NCBI GenBank assembly: GCA_964035545.1
Contig: OZ037769.1
Location: forward strand, 4,339,929 to 4,403,928
Reading direction: 5' to 3'
DNA length: 64,000 nucleotides
DNA from: Bugula neritina
Lineage: Eukaryota; Bryozoa; Gymnolaemata; Cheilostomatida; Bugulidae
In this document: positions 1,938-28,100 of the stretch, piece after piece
How positions within the stretch are numbered: position 1 is the first letter of the stretch
Layout: every line of letters starts with the position of its first letter
Notes under the pieces: model-generated
The model's input: the letters and a program-made list of their open reading frames with translations, nothing else
Told to the model about the DNA's origin: nothing
Databases searched by the model: none
Program-made: the position numbers and the translations under genes

Positions 1938-3574
1938 TTATTTTTTGTAAATGGAGCAGTGGGAAGGTAAAACAAGTTTCTCATTGACATAATACTGATT
2001 ATAATGACAGACACTTGGGAATACTTTTTCCATAACCAACTCCCGCATCTCCTCAGCCAATGAACATCCTCTCTCAGCTTTGAGAAAGCATCTATTTGCC
2101 AAGTACTTTTTTTCACTAAAATAAAAGATTTAATAGAAAAGATTAGAATTAATTAAACATAATATTAACAACAGTCTATATTCATGGTATATGGCATATG
2201 CACCCAATAGCACATTCTTTATGAAAGCATTTCACAGGATGTTACAATTAGGCCGAAACCTTTTTGATATATATAGTGTGTTAAACAATCTCCGTAAGAT
2301 TGCACTCATTTCATTGCAAAATCCTATGTAATAAATTAATGAAAATTAAAATCAAACCTACAATGAAATGGGTGTAATATTATAGATTTACATGTACATA
2401 AAACTTAGATCATGTGAGAAGGTTATATTGTAAACTTCTATTGCAAAAAATATGTATCAAAGCACACAATGCTTTTCTGATAATTTATTACTTTAAAGTT
2501 AAAATCTTAAGAAGAATAAACACTTTTTTTAACTACAGCCAAAGCATTGTTTGATAAGAGAATGAAAGATATCAATTATTTTAAAATGTTGAGGTTTTTA
2601 GCCAAGTTGATTGGATGTGAAAAATGTTAAAGGTTAAGACAAAATCTATGTACTAATTAATTAGGTAGATAACATCGTAAGAGACATTATAGTCAGCATA
2701 TAACTACACATCTACAATAAAGATCAGGTAACTAGAAACTCTTACCACATAAGTGTAGTTCCACTTTTGTCAAACAGATTCCGGAGGCAACTTGAGAGTT
2801 TTCCACATCCTACAATGCGCAAATAAACAGTCCAGATCTTTCGAATTATGTTGACTTCAATTTTTTTTCAGAACAAGTTTTAAAAATCAACATAATATCG
2901 AAAAGCTGTTGCTTACCATATTGAGGGAATTCGATGCCTCTGCAGTTTGAGGCAAACAGATCTACATACTGAATTTCTTGAAACATTTTTTGGACAGGAT
3001 CTTTAACAACACAGTCACTAAGAGCTTCTTGCACAAGTTTTCTGGCACTGAAAAAATTAATACAATATACATGGATGCTACAAAGAATCTGAAAAGTCAA
3101 TTATATCATTTTAAAAAGATGAAAACAAGATTGAATCTTAGATACTTAACAAAAGTTGGTCTTGTTAAGTGTTCTTTGCTATATATCAACATAAAGTACA
3201 TTGGAATTTAGATAATAAGATTTATACAGTATAATAGAAAGCAGCCGTGGTCTAGGGGTTAAAGCGTTTACGGGGGCATGGATTCGAGCCCGGACAAAGG
3301 CCATTGGTATTGTTAGGAAAGGCATTCAGACATAAATTACTCCCGTGCCTCATTTAAAAAACTCCTTTGCCCGTTTTAACAAAAAACCTTCCATCAGGGG
3401 TTTCTCACAGGGATAGCGACTATAATAAATTTGCATGAGTTTTTATAATAGAAAACATGTTAAAAAACAGAGGAATACATGTTTTACTTACAAACCTTAG
3501 ACAATCATAATGACTTCTTGTCAGAACCAATTGTCTAAATCGGCAGAACGTGTTGGCCAGGTTGCTTTCACAAA
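1938..3574 (-). CDS. Exons 38-41: 12-cysteine C-terminal domain of the micro-exon gene
   Basis: Exons are 3496-3574, 2917-3047, 2746-2809 and 1938-2115, with phases 1-2, 2-1, 1-2 and 2-stop. The roughly 150 residues hold 12 cysteines, in contexts such as VCESNLANTFC, SHYDC, ALSDC, ASNCRG, YGCGKLSSC, LMCEKK, NRC, RGC, SVCHY and SHCSIYKK. An even number fits six disulphides in a secreted fold. I do not recognise the domain. The donor at 3494-3495 (GTTTGT) was chosen over a better-looking GTAAGT six bases away because only the former keeps the next exon open. The stop is TAA at 1938-1940. A SINE lies in the intron at 3240-3440. Confidence 0.8.
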
Positions 3575-6500
3575 CTACAAAACATTACCATACATTAAAA
3601 ATACTATAAAAAATGTAGAGTTAACCAAATAAATTTTGTTAGAAAAGCTATAGATTTATTGCATGCAGTCATAAATAATAGCTGCATGAATATTGCATGT
3701 ATATTATTTAATAAGTATGATTGTTAGCTAAATTACATAAAAAAATGTATTTATATTCATATTTTAGATTGATACTGGTATAATAACTGCACATGATAAT
3801 ATTACTTAGTAACTGAATATATAAAAATTATTTAATGAAAATTAATGTTACCTGTTAATTCAAGTACAAGAAACAAATACATATTATATTGAAATGTATA
3901 AATACAACATATTTACCAGAAGTCCCATAACTGTATTCATCAATTTCAACACTTCCTGCAAACAAACAATAACGAACTTTTAAAGATGCAAGTAAATAAC
4001 TATTCCATACAGTCATAGAAACGTTGTTAAAAATCAATTATATATAACCTTGATAGAATTGTATAGCTTTTTATCAATTTTTCAATTAATGTAGTTTAAT
4101 TCTGCTTTAAAGTAGAAAATTTTAGTAGAAACTCTGTTAATGAAAAACTTATATGACATAATTAGATGCTGTATATAGCGACATATGAGCAACTCTGAAA
4201 ATTGCATATAATATTGATATGTAAGTTTGATGTACTTACTACGTTTTCTGCTATAAGTTTCTTTACTTTCTTTACTTTTTCCTACAATCAAACAATGATG
4301 AATCATTTATATTAATATGGGAAGACAATGTTTTATTATATAAAATAGGATCTACATATTATGTTTGAACTAGTTTCAATTCTAATAAAAGCACAAACTT
4401 ATTCCAAAGTAGATTTCATACATACCCTGTTTTTTGCTTTTATTTTTTCTATTTCCTTTGCCTTTTCCTGCATTTTAAAAGCAACAAAATTTTACAGAAA
4501 TTCACAAATCAAACACTCAACTCGATCATCTAATATATAAAAATATTTTTGTGGTAAGATATTGCTTTAATAAATTTTAAAAAATATAGCATATGAGCAA
4601 TATTAGAAAAATTATGGATTTATGCTGCTTTAAAAAGCCACAATAAAATATTTGAATAAATAGCAGCTTTATGCTGTGTATATGTGCACGTACCATGGCT
4701 TTTGCCCATGTGTTTTCTTTTCCCTTTACCTTTACCTTTTCCTTTTCCTGCATTCAAGCAATAATACAATTTTACCCAAACTCACAAATTAAGTGCCCCA
4801 TGAAAATAGCTCATGCATTTCTTGATCTGATTACTTTATGTTACCGATTAAACAATATTTATAGTATTTGATCAAGTTTATAATAAATATTATAATTTTA
4901 TTTAAATTTTCTTTAACAAACACAATGAAAATTAAGCACTAACAAAAGCATGCAAGATTATGTTATCAGATTTTAATATTGTGTGTTAATTCATCACTCT
5001 GTCAAGCACACAAATTTTTATACAAACCTAAACTACTCACCATGTTTTTTCTTATTATCTTCTTCACTTTTTTCAACACTTCCTGTAATTAAATAACAAT
5101 AATATTTTACTAAAACTGGCTCATCAAGTAATAAATATAATATACACACAAATTCATAGGTATGGTATATTATTAGGTCAATATACTCTAAACGATGTGG
5201 TTACTGTATCAGCTGATAATTGTTGCTGCGTCAGCACGGGTGCTGTTTGGCACGGATGCCTATGTATTGTGATTCACTTAATGAAGGATGAATAGATGGA
5301 GGACACAGAAGCAGGCCACAACTCTATTTTTGTCTATTGCCAACAGTATATTTTATAAGACAGACTTAGACTTGAGCTCACATTCATATTTAGACTCACA
5401 CTCATACTTAAACTGTAACCTATAATTGTGAAAATTACAAACATATTGTTAACTTAACATTAATTACATAACTGACAAAACATTTAGTCAATGAAGTTTA
5501 AAACAAAAGATAATATAACACTTGATACTTACAATTATTTTGACAATTAGGAATAGATTGCCTGCATCTTTAGCAGGAGGAAAATTGAGCTACACTGACT
5601 CATCGAACAAAAACTGTCAGTAAATAGCTATCGCGAAAGCTTTCACATATAGCTTTTGTTACACAATGGTTTTTGGAAAGCTGCCAAAAAGCTACTGCAA
5701 CAATGTGTATAGTATATCTGATCATGTCTATATTATTCAATTTACTTAAATTGGTTGCTTGAAAAACCAAAATTAACTAATTACTATAATTTATATTAAG
5801 TTTGATGAACTTACTACGTTTTCTGTTATAAGTTTCTTCTTTGCTTTCTTCTTCACTTTCTTCATTTTTTCCTACAATCATGCAAGCAATAAAGTTATTT
5901 ACCAAAACTTATAAATTAAGTACAAGAATAGCTCAATAAAATTAAATAGCTACATTGCAAGTATATTATCAAGTAAAATATTATTATATAAAAATTATAG
6001 CTCAGTACCACATTTATAAGAATTAATATCATTGAATTAAAGACATTATTAGAAACAAGTTTATATGGTATATTAATATATATATGGCTAGATCTATTTA
6101 TAAATACTATACGTTTAAAGTTCCAAATTAAAAAAAAACACATAATGATATGTAAGTACAGTTTATACTTACCCTGCTTTTTGCCAACATGACTTCCTTT
6201 ACCTTTTCCTGCATTCAAGCAACAATAAAACTTACCCTAACTAACATATTAAGTATATCCATGCATGCAAATAGGTATCATCATTATATATAGTAACTAT
6301 CAAAATTTTTTATCATCATTTGAACAAAATCTATCAAATTTTGTAATGGGTTATTAAATTTGTTATAAATATAACTAAATGTCACAATTAAGAATTAATA
6401 AAATCAGACTAATATGATATATAAGGACATCACCATAAATATGACAAATGCACATGTTGATTTATATCTAGAACATTCCTACCAGGCTTTTTGTCCATCT

Positions 6501-9500
6501 TGTTATTGTCTCCTTTACCCTTCCCTAAATTCAAATAACAATACATTTTTCACCAACTCAAACACCAAATAAGTCATCATGCATTTAAACAGATTGCTAT
6601 GGTATATAATTTGTTAAAGTATCAATAGCACATAACATAAACATAAACTTGAATAATATTTTTTAACAAATAGACTACAATAAATAAAGACTTTAATACA
6701 AAAGCAACTTTTTATCTTATGTTAAGAAAATATCTCAATATTATATGTATGAAGCCCTCAGTTTGACAAAAACTACATACAATTGATATGAGAGTACAGT
6801 TCATGCTCACCATGCTTTTTGTTCATGTTCTTTTTATTTCCTTTACCTTTTCCTGCATTCAAGGAATAATAAAGTTTTACCAAAACTAACAAATTGAATA
6901 CTCATGCGCATAATTCGAGCATTATTCGATATAATAATATTGCATATTATCAACTCAAAAATGTGTAAAAGTGACAATATAAGTTATACAGTAATTATAC
7001 ACTGCTTTAACAACTACAAAAAATCTTCAATAGAAAAAAAATTATACAAGAAAATCTTAATATTCTGTGTAAATATCAATTCTGCCAAGTGTACATATTG
7101 ATAAATAAGTAATATATACTCACCATGCTTTTTGTGGTGGTTCTTTCTATTTCCTTTGCTTTTTCCTGTGATCAAACAATGGCAGAAGATATTAGAGATA
7201 AAAGAGAATTAAAACCAGAAAAACTATTTCTCATTTAGGCATTATATAATTGATTTTTGCTGACTTTCATTGCATGCTTGTTATTCTTCACTTTTGTAGC
7301 AAATTATTATTATTGACACTACTCACTAAAATCGTTTAAATGTTTAAAACTCGAACACTAAGTAAACTGCTATAAGTAAACAATGTCTATATAATTACCA
7401 TGCTTTTTGCCCACATTTTTCCTATCTGCTTTGCCTTTTCCTATAACATTCAAACAATCATAAAAATTTACTAGATTTAACAAACCAAGTAGCCTACTTG
7501 TGCAAATAGTTCATACATTATTAGATAAATAAATTCTTTAATATTATATATTTATTGAAATATATAAAATCTTTACTATATTATCAAGCTTATAAAAAGT
7601 ATAATTGGATATTGATTAGACAACCACAATTAAAAAGAATAAATTTAATAAAAGCAAATTATTAGTGTATTATATAAGCAAATCTCAATACTTTGTGCAA
7701 ATGCATAATTTTAACAAATGTACGTACTAATTAGTAAGTGTAACATACTTACCATGTTTTTGGGGATGATTTCTTTTAGCTGCTCCACCTTTTTCTGCAA
7801 TCAGCCAATAGGAAAAATAAAATAGTTCAATAATCAAGGCAGATAACTACATGAATTTTAGCAAGTTTATAACAACAGGTCTTAATATATATTCTCAATC
7901 AGATAAAATCAACACTGTGTGTAGATCCACAGTTTTAACCATTGAACACATTCTTAAGTCAGTTCAATAAACTTACCAGAGCTTTCAGAACTATTATCAG
8001 TTTCCTTTTCATCATCTGCAGTCAACGAATAATGAAATTATATCAGAACTGACAAATTAGCTAGGAAATAATTCATATATTTATCAATATACCAAAATTA
8101 TGTTAATTGAAAGATGTTTCAACAACTGCAATAAATACTTTATTATAAAGAAATATAATTTATATATAATCACGATAGGCAGATGTTATTATTTTATGTG
8201 AATCCATCATTTTGACAAGTCCACATATTTCTAAGCAGGCATAATTTATTTACCCATATTTTCAAGACTACTATCTTCTGTTTCTTCATCGTCCCCTGGA
8301 TTAAAACAAAAGTAAAATTTTATCAGAACTGAAAAGGTAACTATACAGGCACAAATATAGTTCCTATATTTATTTCAGTATTATTATGTGTTAGTGAGGC
8401 TACACCTTTAGCAAAAACAATAAATAGGTATATATGATTATTGTCAAATTGACATTTTATAATATGATTCATTGTTTAAAAATTATAATGATCTGACTAG
8501 AACGAATTTGATGAGCAAATATAAAATTCTCACCAGAATCTCTGTAGTTATTTTCAGCTCCTTTAACACTTCCTTTATTTAACAAATATGAAATTAAATT
8601 ATTAAATATTTTATGCATGCAAGTTATTGTATATTATCTACTCAATAAATTGCTGTGAAATCTTTAGTTTACATTACTATTTATATGCTAAGAACACATA
8701 CGTGCATACATATCATTTTGAGTGCTGCAATTTAATATTATTTAAGTCTTAAGAGATATCAATAACTATTGAGTGTAAAGTCATATTTTTGACAAATGCA
8801 CATATTGATATGGAAACATAATTTCTCCAATTGGGATTCGAACCAGAGGCCTCTGGCGTGCAAGCAAGTGCGCTAACCACGAGTAATCATAACACCACGT
8901 ACAGATATGTGAGTACAATGCACTTACTAGTCATTCTGGGGTAAGTATGCTCTTCAATGGTCTCACCTGCATTTAAAGAATATAAACTTTCAGAACAGAC
9001 AAATAGGCTACTTCAATAGCACATTAATAATTATGTAATATTAAATAGATAACGCTATAAAAGCACAGCATATATTCATGATAAATTTTGCTATAAATAT
9101 ATTTGCATCAATGCTGCTTTTTCCACTATAACAGCAAATTAGGATTTTTAAAAATAACCCATTCAGATTGCATAAATACATAATTTTGAAAAATTCACAT
9201 ATCGAAATATGTAAGTATGCCATATACTTACTGTTTCTTGTTATATAAGTATGTTTTACTGGTCCTTTACCTGCATTTAAAAGATATACAAATTTTTTTG
9301 AGTTGACATATCAAAACTCTTGCATATAGATAGAGCTATAAAATTGTTCTGTACTATCAGACTGTTTGAACTCTATAAAAATCTTGAACGAATACGGCCA
9401 ATTTGATAATTTATCTAATAATTGAATGTCGCTTTAACTGACACCATAGATATAAATGCTTCATTAAAAAAGAAATTTATCGTCTACAAATCGTGCGTAA

Positions 9501-12500
9501 ATGCACAAGTCTGACAACTGCAAATATATTTATATGTAAACACTGTATACTTACCATGCATTTGGTAGTCTTCATATCCCTTATGGCCTTCCCTTTTTCC
9601 TACAACAACATAACATTTTACTAAAAGGGTAAATTAGGTACTTCAAAATTCACACATCAAAAATTATAATAATGTAAGTTTGTCATCAAACTTATAATAA
9701 ATATATTTGATTGCTGTTTATAAAAAAAGAAAATGAAATACGACTTCTATGCTAGCAATTCTGTATTGAATACAAGCGCATATTTAAATATTGTGAGTAA
9801 CTGCTTAAGTCTGACAAACTCAAATGTTGATAAATATGCCTACCATGATTTCTTTCAGAGCTTTCTCTACCTTTACCTTTACCATGACCTTCACCATGAC
9901 CTTTGCCGTTACCTTTGCCGTTACCTTTTCCAAGACCTTTACCTTCACCATGACCTGTACCATGACCTTTGCTGTTACCTTTTCCATGACCTTTATCTTT
10001 ACCTTTGCCATGACCTTTACCATGACCTTCACCATGACCTTTTCCTCCTCCTGTGAGTAAACAATAATGATACTTTATCAAAACTAACAAATTAAGCACT
10101 GATGCAAATTTTTCACACACAAACAGATATTATTATTGCATAATATTGTTAGGCCAATCAAGTCTATGCAAATATATAGTGTACGTTATCTTTTTTATAA
10201 TACATATAAGTAAATGCTGCTTTAGCAATAAAAATAAGTACTTTAACAATAACAAATGTGAATAATATATGAGCAAATAACAGATTCATGGGTGAATTTA
10301 GAAGTCTGAAAAGTTTACATGTTAATAAGTACGTATAATTCGCACTTACCATGATGTTTGTGAGTATTTTCTTTACTTCCTCTACCTTTTCCGGCTATAA
10401 AAAAGTCAAATTTCAAAAGAACTAACCATTAAGCACCTATGAAAATATCTAGTCAAAACCTTATGAAGATAGACAACATATAGTATTATTATTACACATT
10501 GTTATATAATATTATACAATATTAATGACTCAAACAAATCTGTGAAAATATATTGTAGTTATCAAATTTACAATAACTAATAAGTAAACGCTGCTTTAGC
10601 AAATAATAAACAAATAGCAACAAATGTGAATTGTGTGTAGATAAATTTCAGTTTCGTTGATGAATTTATATAGTTGCAAAATACTCATGTTGGTAAGTAA
10701 GCAAAACAGGATTATACCTTGTTTTTTGTGATCATCTTTTCCAGTTCCTTTATTTTTTCCTGTAACCAAGCACAAGTAAATTTTGCTAAGACTAACAACT
10801 ATTACACGCCCACAAAAATGTACTATACATTTATACACCTTATTGCATATATTAACTACTTAAGCATATCTATAACAAAATATATAAGTAAATGCTACAT
10901 TAGCAACAAGAATTATAAATACACTTTGATAGAAAAATATATTCAAATATTAGGCGCATCTGAATATTATATTGTAAGTAAAGTTATAAGCTTAACATGC
11001 TGGCATATAATTATTAAATGAGAACCACCTGGATATACATACTTACCATGCTTTCTGGGAGTATGTTTTCTAGTTCCTTTTCCTCGCCCTGTAATCAAAA
11101 TAAACTCGTCATACAGCTATCTATATTTTTTGTAAAATTGTTATTATATTCTATTATATTAAATTATATTGTATTAAGTTATATTTTACGTTATAATATA
11201 GCATTCAGGTCGTATTATATTATATTGCACCATGTATATTATATTTGATTGCTATTTTAACTATTAATTATTGTCTAACAACCATCACAACAGATAAGGA
11301 GTTTAATACAAGTATAAACAAATGTATTGTTTATATAAGTAAATCTCAATATCGCATGCAAATTTAACACTCTAACAAATGCACATGCAGATAAGTAGGT
11401 ACAACATGCTTACCATGCTTTTTGTGATTGTCCTTTTTAGTTGCTTTGCCTTCTCCTGCTTTAAAATTAGTATAATTTTACCAAAATTGACAAATTAAAC
11501 ACCCAAGTAGGTTACACATGCATGTACAGCTATATTATTGCATATTATCAATTCACTATATTATATTTAAATCTATAGGACATAAACATTATATTTATTA
11601 TAACTGAATGCTGATTCAACTTTTAACCCTACTCACTCAAGAATCTTAATAAAAAAGCTGCAATAGAAACAAGCTCATGTTGCATTTCAGAAGACTTCAA
11701 TATCGTGTGTAAATTCATATAATTCTGCACCAAATTCACATATTGAGTACAAAATACCAACCTTCTTCATTGCCAGTACTTTTTTCAGTTGTTTCATTGT
11801 TGTCTGCTGGGTTCAAAAAAAATGCAGTATAGTACCAAGCAGTTCACAAATTCAAAGCTATAGATCAACATTATTATAGGTGGATGTCGCATATTTCCAT
11901 GTATGTAGGACATACTTAATAGAAATCGTGTAACTAATATTATATGTTGTGTAAATTTCTAATTCTAATTATTGCACACATGTTTAAGTAAGTACAGTAT
12001 ACTTACCAGTGCTTTCAGAACTATTTTCATCAGTTTCTTCCCTATCATCTACATCTAAAGGAAAGTTAACTAACAAGTTACCTACCCAAGTATTTCGTAT
12101 ACTAAACGCTGTTTTAACAACCAAAATAAATATTTTTATAAAAGCAAATATGCATTGAATATAAGCAAATAGTGATAATTTTAGTAAATTTATTATTTTG
12201 AAATATTAATATATTTTCAAGCAAGCAAAATATTATATCTACCCGTCATTCCAGTACTACTCTCTTCAGTTTCTTCACTGTCGCCTAGATTAACAAAATG
12301 TGAAGTTTTATCAGAACTGACAAATTAGGTACACAAATAGTTCTAATATTTATACTAATTTAATTGTGTGTTAGTAATGCTTCACCTATTGTATTTGAAT
12401 GCTGCTTTATCAAAAACAATAAATAAATATATTATAATTTTTAACAAGTTGACATTTTATATAATGCTGAATAAAAGTTTATAGTTCTAACAAGAATGCA

Positions 12501-15500
12501 TATTGATAAGGAAGAAAAAGTTTCTCACCAGAATTTCCGTAAGTATTTTGTTCAGTCTCATCAACACTTCCTTCATTTAAAAAATTGATAAAATACAACA
12601 GAACTGGTAAGTTATATATTAAAATAGTACTAATGCATTGGTAGATCTATAAAAACTCGATCTTTTGCAAAATTATTATAATATCAATTTAGAAAACTCA
12701 ATTGAATGCTGATTTAACAATCATGATAACATAAAGAGTTTTACAATAACAAATATATGTTACACATATTCTTCACTTTTGTTTGTAAATTCATAACCTT
12801 GGAAACTTTACATAATATTAATATGTAAGTTATACACGATTTACTTACTTGGTAGTCTAATATAAGTATGCTCTTCAATAATCTCACCTGCATTCAAAGA
12901 ACAATATAATCTTTCAGAACTGACTAATTGATTAATCAATTAGCTTTAAATACAGTGATACGTACATTAGTGTATAATATCAAAGTTAAAAGATTCCATA
13001 AAACTATAACACATATAATCCAATTTATAGAAGTCTATTTAAATATAGCATCACCGACTACAGTAAATTAAAAGTTTTTTAAAAAAATTTTATATTGCAT
13101 TGATATTGGTATTGCTTTTGATTTTGTATTGATAATAATTTGGTATTGGTATTGTAAATTTAGATTCCAGAAAAACACAGATATTATTATTTGAATACAA
13201 AATACTTACCAAGATTTCTGCGGTAAGCATTACCTTCAGATCGCTCCTCTCCTCCTGTATTCAAACAAAATGTTACCAAAAATGACAAATTTAAATAGAA
13301 TATTATAATATTTAAACTTTGTAAGTAAATATAAAATACCAGGAAATTCATTAATTTATATGCAAGTACAACATTTTTACCTTGCATTTGGTGACCATAA
13401 CTGTCTTTACTCCCTTCACCACTTTCTACATTCAAACAACAAGAATTTTTTACAAGAACAGGTAAGGTAATTATTAATCAAATAATCTGTAAACATATTA
13501 TAACCATGTTATTGTATCTTACCAACTTTCTATTTGATATAACTCAATCACTGTTTTAAATCTATGATATATATATATATAGAATTTGTAACTACGTAAC
13601 ATATAGGAACATATTTCAATTACTGTGTATAAATACTGCATACAGAATTCTGACAAACACACAAATATTTATGTGTTTACTATAAGTTTACCTTGCATTC
13701 CATAGTCAGTTCTTTCGCTTCTTCCTACATTTACCAATAATAATACTCGGTTAAAACTGACAAATTAAGTAATTGAATAAACCATAAAAGTCTAGCCTGA
13801 AATTAATATAACTAAATGTACTTTTTGAATTTCAATTTAAAATATTTATGACAAAATCATAGATTTTTATAAAAATAACCAAACCGAATAATTGCATTTG
13901 CCTTCCAACATTAAACAATATTATTTTCTACTAAGGTTGACAACTTAAATGCTCAAATAGTTTAGATACATTTACAAAAAAGCTACTGTATATCACTAAT
14001 TTAATAAATTTTACAAGAATATCACTGTAGCCTATGCTTTAAATTTTATGTTGAAGATATTTGTTGCATTTTTGATGAAATGAACTAAAGTAAATATAAT
14101 TTATATAGCAATACATTAATACTATATATATATATAGGCAGTTTTCAATATCTTTTGTTATTACATAACTATAGAAAAATTTATACACACACTGTTTATA
14201 TTTGGTGATTTATTTACCTTGATTTCTGTAGCCATAATATCCTTCATTTCTTTCACCTCGTCCTACATTCAAACAAGAATAATACTTTATCAAAAATAGC
14301 AAGTTGAGCACTAAAATAGCTCATTGAGCAACGATCTCTGTTTTATAGTGTTTTACTATTTAGATTTATAAATTAAAGATGCTATATATATAACAAAGCA
14401 AACTTTTAATCTTTTATTCAACATATTTAATTGATGCTTTAAAAAGCACAAAAAGCAACAAATTATGTTGGTAACAAACTTATATTATAAATAACCACAT
14501 TTGTTTATTGCGTGTAAATATATAGGCTAATTAGAAAATTGCTCATCAAAATTGATATGCAAGTACAATATACGTACCTAGCATTCGGTTGCCATAATAT
14601 AATCTTTCAGGTCTTTCATTGTTTTCTAAATTTAAATAATACAATCGTATAACTATTTTATTAAAATTGACAAACTATATGTGTGCTCAAACAGTGCTTG
14701 TCGACTCAAGATTTGTTTTAAATTTAGTCTAAAATTAATATTTTTTTTAAATTTCAAGTTATAATATTTATAAACAGGTCACAACTTTGTGTGCAAATAA
14801 ATTAATCTAGATATTGCGTGTAAGTTTGATTTGCCTACCTTCCATTCTGTATCCATAATATCCTTCATTTCCTTCACCCCTTGCTAAATTTAAACAGCAG
14901 CAATGTTTTACAATGGCTGACAAATCAAGTACTTAAATATATTTTCATGCATCTATAAATATACTACTGTATATTATCGATTCAACAAGTTTAGCAAAAT
15001 TGCAGTATGCTTTGAATTTTATATTAACTATATTTATTGCTTCTTTATTGAAACACAATAAAGCAATACATTTACAGCAACAAAGTTATAATATATATAA
15101 ACATGCTTCAATATTGTTTGTTAATACACAATTCTGAGAAATTCCCATACCTAGATATCCATAGTAGTTAGGTCTTTCTGCTCCTTTGCCCCTTCCTACA
15201 TTTACATCATAATGAGATTTTATATAATTTTTTTTTATACAATTTTGTTTTGCTACAGCTTTTATATTCTTATTTGTAGCAAGCAATATTCATTATTGCT
15301 AAATATGAAATGATATAGTATATAAAATATTACAACAATATTTTCTAAAATATGATGTTTTGAATTTTTATAGATAATTTACAAATGTTAGATAGCTAGT
15401 TCATCGGAGCTTACCAGCAAATAAAGCAAAGGCACACAGCGCTATAGTAACTCTCACAGATACTGAAAATAAACATAGAGTCCAATGCAATTTCTGATTC

Positions 15501-15734
15501 AAAATAACTTTTTGTCAATTAAAAGAAAAACACAAAAGCATATAAAAATGAAATACTTTTACAAAGTGTGGTGGGCAACAATGATACGCATTGTTTGTGT
15601 GAGACTAAATAAGAATTACTTTTACCAAATTATTCTGTCTACAACAGAACCTTGTAAAATTTTGCATAATAAAACTACAAATTAATACATCTGGATTTAA
15701 CCATTGTAAATAATATAAATATATACTTACACAT
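1938..15734 (-). CDS. Secreted modular protein encoded by a 41-exon tandem micro-exon gene
   Basis: I do not recognise the family. Joined exons give 2160 nt, 719 residues plus stop, without a frame break. Exon 1 carries only ATG plus one base (15731-15734). Exon 2 (15415-15462) completes a signal peptide, MLSVRVTIALCAFALFA, with an AxA-type cleavage site. Exons 3-37 are 35 short exons, all phase 1-1, each with AG acceptor and GT donor, spaced about 200-350 bp apart. Exons 38-41 encode a 150-residue C-terminal domain with 12 cysteines. The middle (residues about 18-570) alternates basic Gly-Lys-His segments, acidic Asp/Glu/Ser segments and Tyr/Gly segments, so it is probably disordered. A TATA box lies upstream. 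Export is inferred from the signal peptide and lack of a later membrane helix. Structural matrix, mucus, adhesive or host/microbe-facing protein are all possible. The model is very likely; which exons are used together is unknown. Confidence 0.85.
3240..3440 (+). mobile_element. tRNA-derived SINE, copy 1
   Basis: It starts with a tRNA-like head: an A-box-like TGGTCTAGGGGTTAAA, then a B-box-like GATTCGAGCCC. The body contains ATTGGTATTGTTAGGAAAGGCATTCAG and a tail around TTTCTCACAGGGATAGCGACTAT. It lies in the intron between the first two exons of the 12-cysteine domain, opposite to transcription. Five other copies in the window share body and tail. Confidence 0.85.
3917..5871 (-). CDS. Exons 32-37: last repeat block (H-R-K-K-H-R)
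   Basis: Six phase 1-1 exons: 5815-5871 (GKNEESEEESKEETYNRKR, class H-like, ends on A), 5041-5082 (RSVEKSEEDNKKKH, class R start with a class K end), 4694-4747 (GKGKGKGKGKRKHMGKSH, class K), 4426-4467 (GKGKGNRKNKSKKQ, class K), 4240-4281 (GKSKESKETYSRKR, class H-like, ends on A) and 3917-3955 (RSVEIDEYSYGTS, class R). Exons 32/33 and 36/37 are copies of the same H-R pair. The intron 5083-5814 is about twice the usual length and contains unrelated sequence near 5160-5560. Confidence 0.84.
5160..5560. other. Array-unlike insertion in an intron of the micro-exon gene
   Basis: This stretch lacks the intron sequence shared by neighbouring repeat units and makes the 5083-5814 intron about twice the usual size. 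It includes a locally GC-richer patch (GCGTCAGCACGGGTGC). It may be a mobile-element remnant that replaced or separated a repeat unit; no termini were identified. Confidence 0.35.
6173..7794 (-). CDS. Exons 26-31: basic Gly/Lys micro-exons (class K, second block)
   Basis: Six phase 1-1 exons: 7753-7794 (EKGGAAKRNHPQKH), 7399-7440 (GKGKADRKNVGKKH), 7124-7165 (GKSKGNRKNHHKKH), 6811-6852 (GKGKGNKKNMNKKH), 6483-6524 (GKGKGDNNKMDKKP) and 6173-6208 (GKGKGSHVGKKQ). All but the last are 42 nt; the last is 36 nt. They are the most uniform run in the array, which suggests recent duplication or homogenisation. The flanking introns are also alike, with a shared ACTNACAAATTAAGTA-like stretch a short way past each exon on the plus strand. 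Confidence 0.86.
7977..9599 (-). CDS. Exons 20-25: Y-H-H-R-D-D block, second copy
   Basis: Six phase 1-1 exons: 9555-9599 (GKREGHKGYEDYQMH, class Y), 9232-9270 (GKGPVKHTYITRN, class H), 8928-8966 (GETIEEHTYPRMT, class H), 8534-8572 (RSVKGAENNYRDS, class R), 8254-8295 (GDDEETEDSSLENM, class D) and 7977-8015 (DDEKETDNSSESS, class D). The order mirrors exons 9-13, and individual exons match their counterparts (GETIEEHTY with GEIIEEHTY, RSV with RSV, DDEKETDNSSESS with DDREETDENSSEST). Both class H exons end on A. A tRNA-like SINE head lies in the intron next to 8928. Confidence 0.84.
8826..8890 (-). mobile_element. tRNA-like SINE head, different from the main SINE family
   Basis: On the minus strand: GTGGTTAGCGCACTTGC, then GGTTCGAATCCC 30 bases on, matching internal Pol III A and B boxes. 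The body of the main SINE family is missing, so this is a fragment or a second family. It sits in an intron of the micro-exon gene. Confidence 0.5.
9844..10050 (-). CDS. Exon 19: expanded GKGHGK repeat exon (207 nt)
   Basis: This class K exon has grown to 207 nt (69 residues) but is still phase 1-1. After GGGKGHGEGHGK it runs as Gly at every second residue, alternating with Lys, His, Glu, Asn or Thr, until RESSERNH at its end. The underlying DNA is a degenerate 6-bp repeat of GGTCAT and GGTAAA types, so it probably grew by replication slippage inside one micro-exon. Residues are about 246-315 of the full product. The reverse frame is also open but consists of the same repeat and is not a gene. 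Confidence 0.87.
10350..11455 (-). CDS. Exons 15-18: basic Gly/Lys/His micro-exons (class K, first block)
   Basis: Four phase 1-1 exons: 11414-11455 (GEGKATKKDNHKKH), 11047-11088 (GRGKGTRKHTPRKH), 10718-10759 (GKNKGTGKDDHKKQ) and 10350-10394 (AGKGRGSKENTHKHH). They share a GKGKG-like start and a KKH/KKQ end and are strongly basic. On the plus strand each copy is marked by a CATGCTTTTTGTG-like donor-side end and a CCTTTTCCTG-like acceptor. The acceptor of the last exon was moved to 10394 because only there is an AG present, giving 45 nt. Confidence 0.85.
11762..12887 (-). CDS. Exons 10-14: H-R-D block, first copy
   Basis: Five phase 1-1 exons. 12849-12887 encodes GEIIEEHTYIRLP (class H) and ends on A rather than G. 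12529-12570 encodes RSVDETEQNTYGNS (class R). 12243-12284 encodes GDSEETEESSTGMT, 12007-12048 DDREETDENSSEST, and 11762-11803 DNNETTEKSTGNEE (class D, acidic). The order H, R, D, D is repeated in exons 22-25, which shows that the block was duplicated as a unit. The last exon has two possible acceptors three bases apart; 42 nt was chosen to match its neighbours. The acidic Ser-rich segments could be phosphorylated or bind calcium, which is inference from composition only. Confidence 0.83.
13210..15195 (-). CDS. Exons 3-9: Tyr/Gly-rich micro-exon block (class Y)
   Basis: Seven phase 1-1 exons: 15151-15195, 14839-14883, 14578-14625, 14218-14262, 13692-13724, 13381-13425 and 13210-13254 (33-48 nt). 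In order they encode GRGKGAERPNYYGYL, ARGEGNEGYYGYRME, ENNERPERLYYGNRML, GRGERNEGYYGYRNQ, GRSERTDYGMQ, ESGEGSKDSYGHQMQ and GGEERSEGNAYRRNL. A G-R/K-G-E start and a YYGYR-like end recur, so these are copies of one ancestral exon. The gap between the fourth and fifth exon is about 490 bp and holds a decayed copy near 13885-13907. Tyr/Gly motifs are common in structural and adhesive extracellular proteins; no function can be assigned. Confidence 0.85.
15415..15734 (-). CDS. Exons 1-2 of the micro-exon gene: start codon and signal peptide
   Basis: Exon 1 ends at 15731 with ATG T before a GTAAGT donor (15725-15730), so the start codon (15732-15734) is split off from nearly all coding sequence. Exon 2, 15415-15462 (48 nt), enters in phase 1 and reads LSVRVTIALCAFALFA after the Met. 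A hydrophobic core follows one Arg, and an ALFA|G site suits signal peptidase. This start was chosen because it is the only ATG that joins in frame to the hydrophobic exon, and it sits below a TATA box. The exon ends on the G that forms the first half of a Gly codon in the next exon, the same junction used by most of the array. Confidence 0.85.
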
Positions 15735-15820: not shown

Positions 15821-15828
15821 CTTATATA
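15821..15828 (-). promoter_or_regulatory. TATA box of the micro-exon gene
   Basis: The minus strand reads TATATAAG here, about 90 bp above the start codon. Transcription would start near 15795, leaving a short leader ending in ATG T at the first donor. A strong TATA box fits a highly or tissue-specifically expressed secreted product. Confidence 0.55.
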
Positions 15829-16638: not shown

Positions 16639-16947
<309 letters not shown>

Positions 16948-20107: not shown

Positions 20108-22839
20108 ATGGATGCACCACCGCCATACCCAGGTTTGTGTTTTTTCTTTCAAGGCTATTGTACAGTACTAGCAATTTGTACTGGTAATATTTAAGCCAAT
20201 TTTGGCGGGTTGTAAGTTAATCTCGGAGCACAAGTATTGCCACACCTAAAGAGCAATTACCACTTCGTGAAGGTGCATTTATACCTCTTTCAAGATAATG
20301 TGCGTAGTTTTAATTAACAAAACTCAGCAACCTTTTTTTTCAAAATAAATTTTCAATGAAACTTGTTGGAGTCACATTGATGGGAAAGATTACCTTCTAG
20401 TAATAATACATGGCACACCGAATCTTCACTTAATCCTTGTGAAAAGTCACTACATCAAGAAATTCAATTGTAACATTAACTACCACAATTTACTGCTTTT
20501 ACTAAAATAGTTCAAGCTAAGCGGGCTCTAGATTAGTCATTTAATAAAAGTAATAGCTACCAGCATGAAGTTTTGTTAAGTGATCTCATGACATAATTAA
20601 AAAAATCCTATGCTTTAATAATGCAACTGAAATCCTAAAGGTGTTACTTAATATGTAGATGAAAAAGGAGACCATGCAAGTGCTCCCCCACGTCCTGTAG
20701 ATGAAATGCATGACAATCCTCCTGAATGTTCCCATCACCAGCAGTATCCATCACATCAAGGTGATTCTCCACAGCAAGGGTATCCCCCACAACAAGGGTA
20801 TCCCCCACAGCAAGGCAATCTCCCACAGCAAGGACATCCATTACAGGAAGGCAATCCTCCACAGCAAGGGCACCCCTCTCAGCAAGGGTATCCCCCACAA
20901 CAAGAATACCCTTCGAAACAAGGATATCCCCCACAGCCAGGATATCCCCCACAGCCAGGGTATCCCCCACAGCCAGGATATCCCCCACAGCAAGGGTATC
21001 CCCCACAACAAGGGTATCCTCCACAGCAAGGGTATCCCCCACAACAAGGATATCCTCCTAATCAGCCATATGTTCCTGCTTCAGGTAGGCACAACTGAAT
21101 TTATTTAAATAGTCTTGTATCGTATTTACCTAATAGTATTCCATTTTCCATGTTTTTGTGTATGTATAAAGGCGTTTGATATTAGATAGTGAATTCATTT
21201 ACCAACACAGGTTTAAAAAATCATCAGCTCATCCCCACTTCATACGCAGTGATTTAGACATCACTCCTTTACATATGGATTTCTCACAGCGAAACAATCT
21301 AAAGGTTTCTGGCACTGAACCATTTTTTAAAATAATTATGACACTTGAATTAAACTTTATGGATCTCACCTGAGATTTCCTAGTCATTTGAAATCAGTTT
21401 TTTCTCAGCGCATCTTTAGCTTCAAGTAAAAATCATCTATGTTGGGCGCGTGCCTTTATACTAGATAAAGGTTTTCAAAGTCATTTTGTTGCACTAGGTG
21501 TCAGGAGAAGTTTAGCATATAATAAAGTATTGCTATGCATTTTGGTCACATTTGCTACAGTTGTTTCTTATTTTAGGGCAACAGCAACAGATGTATGTGC
21601 CTCAACCTGGAGTATCGCAAGGTGGTCACCAGCAGATGGTGATGGTGGTGTCTGGCCAGGTATGATAGAACTCTAGAATTAGTCTATCTAGATTGTGATT
21701 AGATTCTAGAAATATAAAATGGCTATGTTTGTTGGGCGAACCGCACTGTAGTGGTTAGAGCGCTGGCTTAGTGAAACATGAGGTCAGTTGTTTGAGCCCA
21801 GACACTATTGGTGATGTTAGGAAGAACATCCAGTCATGATTGCTTCTGTGGCACATATGAATGACACCTTAGCCCACTTAAAAAAGCCCTTTTCCATCAG
21901 GGGTTCTCACAGGGATAGTGACTATGAGCTCAGTTGAGGTTTTATGTTTTTTTACTAAAATTACGCTCACAAAATATTTTTTCTAAATGCCGACTCTGTA
22001 TAACTGACTATTGCAGAGAGCAAACGATTACATGGGATTCTCCATCTTCAACCTGGTATGCTGCTGCTGTCTGATTGGAATATTTGCTTTGGTGAAGTCG
22101 CTAGCTGTGAGAAGTGCCAACACCAGAGGAGACTATGAAACAGCAAAGAGAGAGTCTAGAGCAGCTCTGAGACTCAACAAAGTTGCTCTAGGTAAGTAGT
22201 GACAACTCCAAGTCTGTTGTAACCTATAGGAATGCAAGTCAACTCATAGTAATTTACTAAACGTTGACTGGCAATTGGTGTATGTGCGTATTTCTAGTGT
22301 GCCACTTGACATTTAACATTGCACTGCTTGCAAGTGAAAGGCATTGTTAAGATTAATAGTGAAGTTAAAATTAAACATTAGTAGTAATACTTGAAAATAT
22401 TTGTACAAAAAGTTGTATTAGTTGTGGAAATAGCCATTAATTGATGTTGCTAACACTATAATTTTATTGATTCAAATGGTGTTCAATAAAGTAATAATAT
22501 TATATTTCTTTCCAATTCCTGAAGTTGTGATGCGCTTTAAGTTTTTTCAATACATTTTATTTCTCTTGCAAAAAATAGTTTTGCGAATCTCTATAAGTCT
22601 TTGGCACCTTTATTAAGCTAGAAGCTTGATTTTCCGCAATTTTACTTTTTCAGAGATATTTTCATGATATCCCAGGGTTTTCTTCAACATTTTATAAATT
22701 GATTCTATCACATCAAGCATGCAGTAAACTGTTGCATTGCATTGTTGCAGGTGTTGGCATAGGCTGCATAGCTATCTACATTGGGCTCAGTGTAGTGTAC
22801 ACATTGTTTGGTACTTCAGCATACTACACCTACTACTAG
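20108..22839 (+). CDS. CD225/dispanin family membrane protein with YPPQQG repeats
   Basis: Five exons (20108-20132, 20659-21084, 21577-21659, 22017-22191, 22751-22839) join to 265 residues. Residues 1-178 are cytosolic and Pro/Gln/Gly/Tyr-rich, starting MDAPPPYPG, with many YPPQQG-type hexapeptides in exon 2. The CD225 domain follows: a first hydrophobic segment with [17 protein letters not shown], a polar loop with [18 protein letters not shown], and a second membrane helix [18 protein letters not shown], ending AYYTYY. The Cys cluster is a likely S-palmitoylation site, as known in IFITM and related dispanins. Vertebrate relatives include PRRT and SynDIG-type proteins of endosomal and plasma membranes. 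The short Pro-rich start and the loop spacing fit the family. The Pro-rich exon may bind WW or SH3 domains, which is inference. A SINE occupies intron 3. Confidence 0.9.
20772..21056 (+). repeat. 18-bp coding repeat (YPPQQG) in exon 2 of the CD225 gene
   Basis: Roughly 15 or more tandem copies of an 18-bp unit like CCACAGCAAGGGTATCCC encode YPPQQG, with YPPQPG, HPSQQG, NPPQQG and YPSKQG variants. The last copies are the most uniform, so that end probably expanded most recently. The reverse strand and another frame are open through the repeat but are not genes. Confidence 0.92.
21733..21950 (+). mobile_element. tRNA-derived SINE, copy 2
   Basis: A head with TAGTGGTTAGAGCG and a degraded B box (GTTTGAGCCC), the body GTGATGTTAGGAAGAACATCCAGTC, and the tail TTCTCACAGGGATAGTGACTAT shared with the other copies. 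It lies in intron 3 of the CD225 gene, in the same orientation. Confidence 0.85.
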
Positions 22840-25197: not shown

Positions 25198-28100
25198 CTG
25201 CAATAAAATACTTGCCTTTACTTGAGGCACATTTTAAATCACTGTAGGGTACACATTACATTACTGTAGGGTACACCTTACATTACTGTAGGGTACACTT
25301 TTCTGTATTGCAGGTACACCTCACTCACAATAAGTTATGCAATGCCCTTATTTATTAAATAGGGAACTACACGTTTCATATCACAATTGCCATGGCTTGA
25401 ACTGATAATTTAGCAGAGTTTTTTCAAGAAAATATAACGTTTAACCCATAGACACCAGTGGTCCGTGCATCAGAAAACATTTTCTCAAAGAGCTAGCAAC
25501 GAGTATATTTATGTAATTCAGTACCATACAACAACAAAACATTGCTGGCTGCAATAACTATGAAAAATAATAAGCTCATTGGTGATATCATACTGAAACA
25601 TGTGCAAGTTTCAATATAATCCTAAGCTGTACGATTTAAATAAAAATGCTTAAAATAATAAAACAACTTTCTCAATGCGACAGAATTCCTAGAAGCATTA
25701 AGTCATGCTATAACAATTGCTACACACAACACATTCGCATCAAATCAGATTATTTTTAGACAACATTATAGTATGAGAACATGATCACGATAACAGTTGG
25801 TTAAACAATGCAATACCTCTTAGCTGAAGGCACTGGTGTTGTTGATACTGCATCAGCAACTTTTTCTTCAACTCCAAAGTCATTGAAACCATTAGACACT
25901 ATGTTATCAGCGAGTTGGTTATTCACACTATCCGGCTCTGAGGTTATCCTTGTAGCCTGTGACACCACCCCACCTGGTTCTGAGACTATCTGTGTAGCCT
26001 GTGACACCACCTCGTCTGTATCTGAGGCTACCTGTGTGATCTCGGCTTCAACTCTTTCAGTGACATCATCACTCTAATAATTATGAAAAAGATGTAAATA
26101 TATAGAGCTTCAAAGTATCTAATACTACCAAGCAATGTATTTCATATATAGGTAAAGTATCAAGGGCAATATGAAAATAATATGCTGCTTCTAAAAATTA
26201 GTTATCTAACTTTTGTACTAAATTTAAACAGAAAATGATTTGGTAAAAGTCAGTTACGCACTAATGACAGGGCATATTTTCGTATCAATAACATTACCAT
26301 TAGCAGATATCACTTCATTACTTTAGTCAGTTATATATGATAATATCAATGATTTACATTATTCTACTACGTGCTTCCTCCATATCTCACAGATCCATTT
26401 CTCATGAAATTCCATAGGCTACAAGAAGGGCTGGGACCCATGTTTTGTACCTTATGTATGTGTGAAGGGACAAAATAGCCGAATTTACAGATCTGCAAGC
26501 TAAATCTGATGTTACGAATTGAGGTTTCAGGACCCGCAGCTTAGTGAGATATGTAGGGAGCACTGTAATTTAGTCAGTTATAAAACCCTCTGGGAAAAGC
26601 AAGTTTAAAAACTCATACTATATTGGATAAACATTTTGACAACATACAACAGGTGCTTGCAGTGCTGTGTCAGTGTTGGCAGGTGTCATGTCACTCGTAG
26701 AGCTGACATCTAAAGTCAAGCTGTCCGTACTCTGTGAAGTGTCACCAGTTGCCGTAGAAGATAAATTGGATCTGTTAGCACCTAAACCATCATCAGAGTT
26801 GTATGGATAACAAATATTGTAGCATAGTATAATGTCCATGCAGAGCACCAAGTGGAGATAACTGTAAACGAATCATTAAAGAGATGACTCCCTGTGCAAG
26901 ATGCATTATGTAAACTAGAAGTGATATTTCTAAGGATTTTGGGGAAAATATTTAAATACAAAAGTTCTTCAACTGCTACAAAATTGATTCACTTGAACAC
27001 TATATTGCGGCAAATATCCAACAGGACTTTTAAAGAACCATCAAAAATAGGAGAAATGAACAAACAAGATGATGAAAAACTGCATTTGAGAACTATAGGA
27101 AAAAAAGACAATTTTGGCTAATGATTTGTTACAAGGTTTCAGAAACAAGATAAAAACTTCTCGCTGTTATTAAGCTGTGCATACAGTAACAATTACGATG
27201 ATTGTTCAGCAACTGCTGACATTACAAATTCTTGAGTGTCAGAAGGCCTTGGTTACAAACAGCAGCTTCACACATCACACATAGACCCACCACTAGGGGG
27301 TGAATGTTTTCCACCACTGTCTCTACTCCAGCTTGTATCATGCAGAGTGACGGGAAGAGTAATGGAGTCCACAGAGTTGGTGTCTGTTATGTTAGACGAG
27401 TTGAGAGCAGCTGGTAGGTCGGAGTTCGTGTGTTCAATGTAGCAGAGATTGCAAACTCTTGACTTCTTACCACTAGCCGCTGTATTCACCCAGTTATCTG
27501 AGCACTGGTAACAGTAGACCTGCCCACACAGCCTGCAGTGGTGCTACAATACCAATCCAACATTATGCGTTACATGCATACTTATATGTATTCTTATGTA
27601 CACTGCTTGACCTACGGACAAACATACTATATAGTGTAAATTGTTCTAGCAAAACCTCTTACAATTATATCAATAATTGTGGCTATACTTGTCAATTAGG
27701 CCGATTCACATGAGAGTTACGTTTAATGGTTGTTAGTAGCATCAAGTGCAGTTACTAGCAAATATCAGCTGTACAATGTAAATTTTCATCCTTTAATTAT
27801 TTCAGCTAATTTTTTGTGTTGACATGGCAGGTTAATGTCACACGTTGCTATAAAAATGAAGTAAAGCAAATTACTTTTATTTCCTAATGAGTTTGCATAA
27901 ACTAAAATCCAGAAACAGATTCTTTAGTGTCCACGATCTTTTAAAATTCCAATGAATTTACCACTCAATGCATGTAAGTTATACTAGAATAAATGTAAGT
28001 CATGCTAACTAAAATACACGCCAGCCGTACTAGATTAAATAAAAAGTCAGCGAATAAATAAGGTAGAACCTTTCTAAGTAGAAGAGAGAAGGTAGCACGG

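Follow-up and report, generated by a model that had tools for sequence, protein, structure and literature searches.

A predicted Bugula neritina gene with 35 tandem symmetric exons, most likely amplified from the single linker exon of a clustered 12-cysteine family

The window analysed here comprises 64,000 nucleotides (nt) of the bryozoan Bugula neritina (assembly GCA_964035545.1, contig OZ037769.1, positions 4,339,929 to 4,403,928; C5:4339929-4403928 in what follows), and its minus strand carries a predicted gene of 41 coding exons, from E1 (15734-15731) to E41 (2115-1938), that read as one open frame of 722 amino acids (aa). The encoded protein would begin with a signal peptide, continue through an array of 35 consecutive exons (E3-E37) and end in a 150-residue domain with 12 cysteines (E38-E41). 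The best explanation overall, held with a probability of roughly 0.62, is that amplification of a linker exon gave rise to a secreted, charge-blocked structural protein, with most messenger RNAs (mRNAs) containing most of the exons. DNA comparisons with related genes next door make it most likely that a single ancestral linker exon, together with its intron, was duplicated in tandem to form the array.

All 40 introns are bounded by GT and AG, and all 35 array exons are in phase 1-1. The sequence-only reading of this DNA had described 35 tandem symmetric exons, any of which could be removed without loss of frame, and both statements hold: 34 of the 35 measure 33-57 nt, 32 are of 51 nt or less, none is of 30 nt or less, and E19 has 207 nt. 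The median pitch of the array exons is 321.5 nt, with introns near 276 nt, and together these exons encode 554 residues without a single cysteine. The signal peptide is completed by E2 (MLSVRVTIALCAFALFAG). The earlier view of one gene for a secreted protein, with a signal peptide at one end and the 12-cysteine domain at the other, is borne out by the open 41-exon frame and the cysteine count; the length of 719 residues that it gave is replaced by 722 aa from exon-by-exon translation. At the level of the DNA, the observation of an intact 41-exon gene is confirmed. The features are listed below in window positions, position 1 being the first letter of the window; g17-g20 and g22 are paralogues described further on.

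15821..15828, minus strand: TATATAAG, which we take to be TATA-box-like, about 90 nt 5' of the start codon (from sequence)
15731..15734, minus strand: E1, ATG plus one base (open frame)
15415..15462, minus strand: E2, signal peptide exon, phase 1-1, (L)SVRVTIALCAFALFA(G) (frame, and similar exon in g17-g20 and g22)
15151..15195, minus strand: E3, array exon, 45 nt, RGKGAERPNYYGYL
14839..14883, minus strand: E4, array exon, 45 nt, RGEGNEGYYGYRME
14578..14625, minus strand: E5, array exon, 48 nt
14218..14262, minus strand: E6, array exon, 45 nt, RGERNEGYYGYRNQ
13692..13724, minus strand: E7, array exon, 33 nt
13381..13425, minus strand: E8, array exon, 45 nt
13210..13254, minus strand: E9, array exon, 45 nt
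12849..12887, minus strand: E10, array exon, 39 nt, EIIEEHTYIRLP, pairs with E22
12529..12570, minus strand: E11, array exon, 42 nt, pairs with E23
12243..12284, minus strand: E12, array exon, 42 nt, acidic, pairs with E24
12007..12054, minus strand: E13, array exon, 48 nt, acidic, pairs with E25
11762..11806, minus strand: E14, array exon, 45 nt, acidic
11414..11455, minus strand: E15, array exon, 42 nt, basic
11047..11088, minus strand: E16, array exon, 42 nt, basic
10718..10759, minus strand: E17, array exon, 42 nt, basic
10350..10394, minus strand: E18, array exon, 45 nt, basic
9844..10050, minus strand: E19, array exon, 207 nt, Gly/Lys/His, minisatellite inside
9555..9599, minus strand: E20, array exon, 45 nt
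9232..9270, minus strand: E21, array exon, 39 nt
8928..8966, minus strand: E22, array exon, 39 nt
8534..8572, minus strand: E23, array exon, 39 nt
8254..8295, minus strand: E24, array exon, 42 nt, acidic
7977..8015, minus strand: E25, array exon, 39 nt, acidic
7753..7794, minus strand: E26, array exon, 42 nt, basic
7399..7440, minus strand: E27, array exon, 42 nt, basic
7124..7165, minus strand: E28, array exon, 42 nt, basic
6811..6852, minus strand: E29, array exon, 42 nt, basic
6483..6524, minus strand: E30, array exon, 42 nt, basic
6173..6208, minus strand: E31, array exon, 36 nt, basic
5815..5871, minus strand: E32, array exon, 57 nt, RKR at its end, RKRR|SV across the junction with E33
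5041..5082, minus strand: E33, array exon, 42 nt
4694..4747, minus strand: E34, array exon, 54 nt, basic
4426..4467, minus strand: E35, array exon, 42 nt, basic
4240..4281, minus strand: E36, array exon, 42 nt, RKR at its end, RKRR|SV across the junction with E37
3917..3955, minus strand: E37, last array exon, 39 nt, at the position of the single linker exon of the paralogues
3496..3574, minus strand: E38, first of four exons of the 12-cysteine domain, phase 1-2
2917..3047, minus strand: E39, second domain exon, phase 2-1
2746..2809, minus strand: E40, third domain exon, phase 1-2
1938..2115, minus strand: E41, fourth domain exon, through the stop codon
1703..1708, minus strand: AATAAA, presumably a polyadenylation-like signal, 230 nt 3' of the stop

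Under untrained rules, which asked for a [CT]AG acceptor, a common donor and an open exon of 33-57 nt in phase 1-1, the gene strand gave 24 candidate exons that do not overlap. The opposite strand gave 6 and the reversed sequence 3, and across 200 dinucleotide shuffles the mean was 2.3 and the highest count 7; of the 35 array exons, only 23 satisfy these rules. A model trained on the gene recovered 33 of 36 exons (E2-E37), which are its own training data, and found no exons in the window outside the gene region at thresholds of 10 or more. The C-terminal part of the gene model is backed by the paralogues, and the unusual GTTTGT donor of E38 occurs exactly in 6 of the 20 that were modelled. By eye, the 732-nt intron that precedes E33 also shows an exon-like stretch, at about 5420-5360; a good donor is absent, and the stretch was excluded from the model.

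Homology within the array extends beyond the exons. Of 595 possible pairs of exon-plus-intron units, 80 were alike at E values of 1e-3 or less (0-2 in 20 shuffles), as were 49 of 595 pairs of introns alone (0-3 in shuffles), while four control sets of 35 chunks of similar pitch from elsewhere in the window yielded 0, 2, 5 and 2 alike pairs. By this measure of DNA likeness, the repeating unit of the array is the exon plus its intron. Summed unit-match scores are dominated by lags 2, 1 and 12, and the five exon pairs compared at lag 12 (E9-E13 with E21-E25) indicate a block duplication. In a leave-one-out comparison, 18 of 35 upstream and 23 of 35 downstream array flanks exceeded the 99% control. 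All six genome matches to the DNA of the E29 unit with its flanks, self included, lie inside its own array, with none outside it to mark a second array, although only the best candidates were scored and a diverged array may escape such a search; all seven matches to the N-terminal 192 residues, again among the best candidates only, are the window's own exons. A copy of the array's upstream flank at 13913-13963 (minus strand), in the 493-nt intron before E7, ends in TTG instead of the acceptor AG and is perhaps a dead array unit; it is matched by g17, g18 and g19 (78-80% over 49-51 nt) and is absent from the unit-level search results of masked introns.

The array peptide appears to be conserved, given that the ratio of nonsynonymous to synonymous divergence (dN/dS) is about 0.4 in three groups of look-alike array exons (dS 0.62-0.82, dN 0.26-0.31), the pairs having been picked by likeness with some exons reused across pairs. 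A fourth group is the single pair E32/E36, with dS of 0 and dN of 0.13 on 6 synonymous sites, whose units are 76% identical over 93 nt. Neighbouring array exons share their charge, none of 10,000 shuffles of exon order being as smooth, and the blocks run from Tyr/Gly/Arg to acidic, then Lys/Gly/His, then acidic and basic again.

The domain at the C-terminal end belongs to a local family. Searching the genome (215,847,546 bases, 295 contigs) with the domain returned 42 matches at E values of 10 or less, of which 40 lie at C5:4.096-4.343 Mb (four of them exons of the window gene) and the remaining two around C5:10.334 Mb. To the left of the window, at C5:4.097-4.326 Mb, there are 22 places (g1-g22) on both strands with related domain exons, some of them incomplete; the scan covered C5 4,090,001-4,290,000 (2,500 of 200,000 bases being N) and loci over 4,314,398-4,327,689 less a short gap. 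Twenty of the 22 paralogues were modelled together with the window gene, leaving out g2 and g12 as too divergent or partial. After g3, g13 and g15 (exon or boundary missing) and g4 (stop in the crude join) were dropped, 17 complete stop-free rows (16 paralogues and the window gene) entered the tree and 14 of those, without g9, g18 and g22, the alignment. The 12 cysteine columns are invariant in all 14 aligned rows, window gene included, and exactly 12 cysteines are present in 15 of the 17 complete rows, with 13 in g21 and g22. Four domain exons in phases 1-2, 2-1, 1-2 and 2-stop, with AG and GT, are found in the window gene and in 17 of the 20 modelled paralogues; the join of g4 contains a stop, and the second exon of g18 begins at an odd place. 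The tree places the window gene among g14 and g16-g22 (support 99/97) without resolving its sister; the nearest is g17, at 51% identity. In the cysteine domain, dN/dS of the window gene is 0.25, 0.30 and 0.33 against g17, g20 and g21, dS being saturated against g1. The signal exon E2 has 7-10 of 15 residues in common with g17, g18, g19, g20 and g22 and 37 of 48 nt in common with g17, and blastn aligns the E2 region with g17 at 82% over 66 nt (E value 1e-13). Judged by its domain, the window gene is a member of a clustered family of secreted 12-cysteine proteins. At L045 (C5:10332001-10335500), 6 Mb from the cluster, there is a distant partial copy of the domain resembling exons 2-4; no first domain exon was seen there by eye in 1.8 kb.

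The statement of the sequence-only reading that the C-terminal domain matches no family known to it does not survive these 22 related places, or the three public Bugula neritina proteins that carry the domain: P0005 (EB796_018474), P0006 (EB796_006143) and P0007 (EB796_018472) are 91, 92 and 98% identical to g5, g14 and g11, respectively, and 43, 41 and 36% identical to the window domain. Protein searches turned out differently by query. The window domain alone, a query that this reading had proposed, gave 5 candidates, none at an E value of 1 or less, and for the C-terminal half of 451 aa, of which residues 131-451 were scored, no protein reached 0.001 or less among 8000 candidates scored, whereas the family alignment gave 4 proteins at 1 or less among 478 candidates, namely the three Bugula neritina proteins and an unnamed 78-aa piece that is 98% like g10 over 52 residues. 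No Pfam family was matched by the window domain, by any of 14 family members (E values of 1 or less) or by the three Bugula proteins (10 or less). UniRef labels P0005 as DUF19 domain-containing; identity with DUF19 (PF01579) was rejected on the lack of any Pfam match in family members or Bugula proteins, and the DUF19 profile, run exon by exon against the genome, gave 7 weak places, none over the cut-off and none in the cluster. Among solved structures, the single domain sequence matched four chains (best E value 0.31) and the domain profile four chains with a best E value of 0.034, to bee-venom phospholipase A2 at positions 40-88; neither result was read as kinship. A predicted model of P0006, built from 3 sequences only, has six helices with a predicted local distance difference test score (pLDDT) of 73 and a predicted template modelling score (pTM) of 0.68, and comparison of the predicted domain with known structures gave only middling helical matches and no clear fold. 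None of the papers listed in literature searches resembled, by title and start of abstract, a description of this gene, most subscription journals being outside that scope.

The relatives in the cluster suggest where the array came from. Between the signal exon and the domain, 15 of 22 paralogues (g4-g10, g13, g15-g20 and g22) have one phase 1-1 linker exon of 27-75 nt, chosen by eye among at most 7 candidates each, ranked by splice score, leaning on likeness to sister genes; most of the picks ranked first or second, and for g20, where a piece had been clipped, the coordinates were adjusted manually. An array-trained scan of 200 kb gave 11 and 12 hits, compared with 3 and 3 in a reversed control, and within 2.6 kb before the domain it placed a single exon in each of 11 paralogues and two in none, although it is biased towards the composition of the window gene and missed the linkers of g5 and g13. 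P0005 and P0006, read independently, show a signal peptide, one linker (22 and 11 residues) and then the domain; the start of P0007 differs. The window gene shares the domain and the signal-peptide-like start of this small secreted family, and differs from it in having 35 exons and 554 residues where P0005 and P0006 have one linker, a trait that would be a derived feature of this member. None of 800 control sites, taken at [CT]AG on both strands of the cluster sequence, matches the array flanks as well as do the upstream flanks of the g17, g18 and g19 linkers, a result that points to tandem duplication of one ancestral linker exon and its intron, and it is on these three genes that the amplification argument appears strongest; for g22 and g20, 5 and 10 of 800 controls were as good. 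Synonymous divergence is 0.6-0.8 within the array, 1.2-1.5 between the window gene and g17, g20 and g21, and 0.13-0.14 in the youngest paralogue pairs; the array lies between those two levels, which fits expansion after the gene split off and persistence since. The plan of the family is a signal peptide, a single short linker exon in phase 1-1 and the four-exon domain. It is strongly supported that in this one gene the linker exon and surrounding intron were duplicated in tandem, unit by unit and at least once as a block of several exons, until 35 copies were reached. Each copy was accepted without a frameshift because both ends of the linker exon are in phase 1, and the copies diverged, mostly under purifying selection, into the Tyr/Gly/Arg, acidic and Lys/Gly/His types arranged in blocks.

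The array is hydrophilic, with 18% Gly, 16% Lys and 12% Glu and neither Cys nor Trp, a composition that by itself suggests that the tail is probably disordered. Its calculated isoelectric point is 9.7, and the mature protein would have a mass of 79 kDa. The product may therefore be pictured as a secreted protein of about that size in which a long disordered polyampholyte tail is attached to a compact, helical, disulphide-bonded domain. A glue, mucus or matrix function would be expected of such a combination, and the protein could serve as an extracellular structural material of adhesive, mucus-like or matrix-like kind, held together by charge and perhaps by Tyr/Lys cross-links. Bugula larvae attach by a secretion. 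The motif RKRRSV occurs where E32 meets E33 and again where E36 meets E37, in the latter case just ahead of the cysteine domain, and RKRR|SV, which we take to be a putative convertase site, may let a proprotein convertase release the domain from the tail. The ends of both E32 (5815-5871) and E36 (4240-4281) read GTAGTAAGT, with two donors 3 nt apart that would give RKRRSV or RKRSV.

There are several competing explanations for these observations. That the exons are chance matches or a mis-joined model is very improbable: the gene model was assembled by eye and script from DNA alone, but the 24 candidates on the gene strand compare with at most 7 in any shuffle, the array exons and the introns are homologous among themselves, and the domain model derived from paralogues agrees; individual exon ends could nonetheless be misplaced. 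It is also improbable, if slightly less so, that the array is a decaying or neutral repeat expansion, open by happenstance and without functional weight. Its strongly repetitive composition and the flank copy without a working acceptor at 13963-13913 are what such a history would leave behind, whereas the 40 canonical introns, the intact frame and the dN/dS of about 0.4 in three exon groups speak for constraint.

A possible though still unlikely alternative is that the protein is a precursor from which cleavage at dibasic sites, RKRR|SV among them, frees cationic peptides (for example antimicrobial ones), with the cysteine domain acting alone as in the paralogues. The placement of RKRRSV at two exon junctions, one just before the domain, and the basic character of the pieces (net +3 to +9 per exon) would suit this; however, the convertase site is a putative motif, its two occurrences are copies of each other in the E32/E36 units, and acidic blocks are atypical of such peptides. 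Rather doubtful is the view, raised in the sequence-only reading, that the gene is a variant generator, a single promoter yielding many secreted isoforms because the array is spliced in many combinations; such a role has been proposed for the micro-exon genes (MEGs) of schistosomes. Combinatorial splicing of the array exons is possible given that all 35 are symmetric and short, that 12 of 35 fail strict splice-site and size rules and that they differ in sequence, so that combinations would differ; but duplication of one symmetric exon makes all copies symmetric automatically, and symmetry is no proof of use in splicing. Intron flanks gave 5 scattered inverted matches versus 142 direct ones (self included) and no common partner of the kind expected of docking sites for exclusive splicing. 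It seems equally doubtful that a bryozoan independently evolved a combinatorial MEG of 35 cassettes, with isoforms by tissue, stage or zooid on a constant 12-cysteine anchor; if it did, the one-exon paralogues next door would let the birth of a combinatorial system be read step by step. Under linker-exon amplification, most mRNAs would include most array exons, with some skipping.

It is also important to note several points that weigh against linker-exon amplification and a structural role. The joining of the 35 array exons is predicted from DNA alone, and neither the C-terminal half, searched among proteins of about 248-789 aa only, nor the domain alone turned up a database protein in which array and domain are combined. 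The paralogue linkers were picked by eye, that of g13 from third rank, 7 of 22 paralogues have no assigned linker, and the script that located exon ends searched for the window gene's own phases. Upstream flanks of the other ten linkers are not outstanding (controls as good out of 800: g15 49, g16 64, g10 104, g13 115, g4 160, g5-g9 235-585), g16 being in the window gene's own clade; none of the downstream flanks stands out (best 40 of 800), and the paralogue linker exons themselves resemble the array weakly. Array dS comes from few sites (S 32-56), a common origin of every array unit is not demonstrable singly from flanks, and the material function is an expectation from composition alone.

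Schistosome MEGs, according to two papers (PMC5825161, PMC10526429), encode secreted proteins whose coding region consists mostly of short symmetric exons, with 10-20 very short exons, mostly of 15 bp (6-36 or 6-81 bp), central introns of up to 4-5 kb and variation by alternative splicing. Compared with the genes described there, the window gene also has a coding region mostly of short symmetric exons, but its smallest array exon (33 nt) is larger than the typical MEG exon, its introns are near 276 nt, it has a terminal 12-cysteine domain and its paralogues retain a one-exon state; the likeness would thus be one of layout only. Tandemly repeated exons of 81 bases were reportedly described in Schistosoma by Davis in 1988, the likeness being an exon repeated in tandem within one gene. 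Long in-phase runs of short or repeated exons encoding an unfolded extracellular or elastic region are also found in tropoelastin, titin PEVK and spider flagelliform silk, where in the silk gene the introns repeat along with the exons; composition and taxa differ, and the parallel with the window gene would be one of gene layout.

Where a gene consists of many short symmetric exons, it is usually encountered in its finished form, with no trace of how it began. Tandem exon amplification itself is already known, but in this case the one-exon state persists next door, and the one-exon neighbours together with the matching g17-g19 intron flanks would allow the growth from one linker exon to 35 copies to be traced within one cluster. 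The window gene is in addition a candidate for a new bryozoan secreted material protein, and it offers a clear test case for whether such arrays serve splice variation or simply make a long tail.

The gene is flanked on both sides by dinucleotide runs, GT x 205 (1100-1510) and AT x 100 (16743-16942), and two transfer RNA (tRNA)-like stretches recognised by eye in its introns, 8821-8880 (minus strand, GGTTCGAATCC) and 3241-3300 (minus strand, GGCTCGAATCC), are probably short tRNA-derived repeats; Rfam gave no matches in the window at gathering scores. Elsewhere in the window there are open frames at 20652-21098 (plus strand), rich in YPPQQG repeats and without a Pfam match at an E value of 0.1 or less; at 27268-27543 (minus strand), with a FYVE domain (E value 3e-9); at 31115-32485 (minus strand), with a 456-aa stretch that looks coiled-coil-like by eye; and at 45378-45656 (minus strand), with a sushi-like stretch (E value 7e-4, just under the cut-off). 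In the wider assembly, COX1 on contig C295 reads best, by judgement, with the invertebrate mitochondrial code. Further COX1 matches on C17 (without TGA) and on C65 and C196 (of other make-up, that on C196 in two pieces 2.8 kb apart) perhaps derive from other organisms or organelles, while copies on large contigs, near full length at C6:11174072-11175412 and broken on C4, are perhaps nuclear mitochondrial DNA segments.

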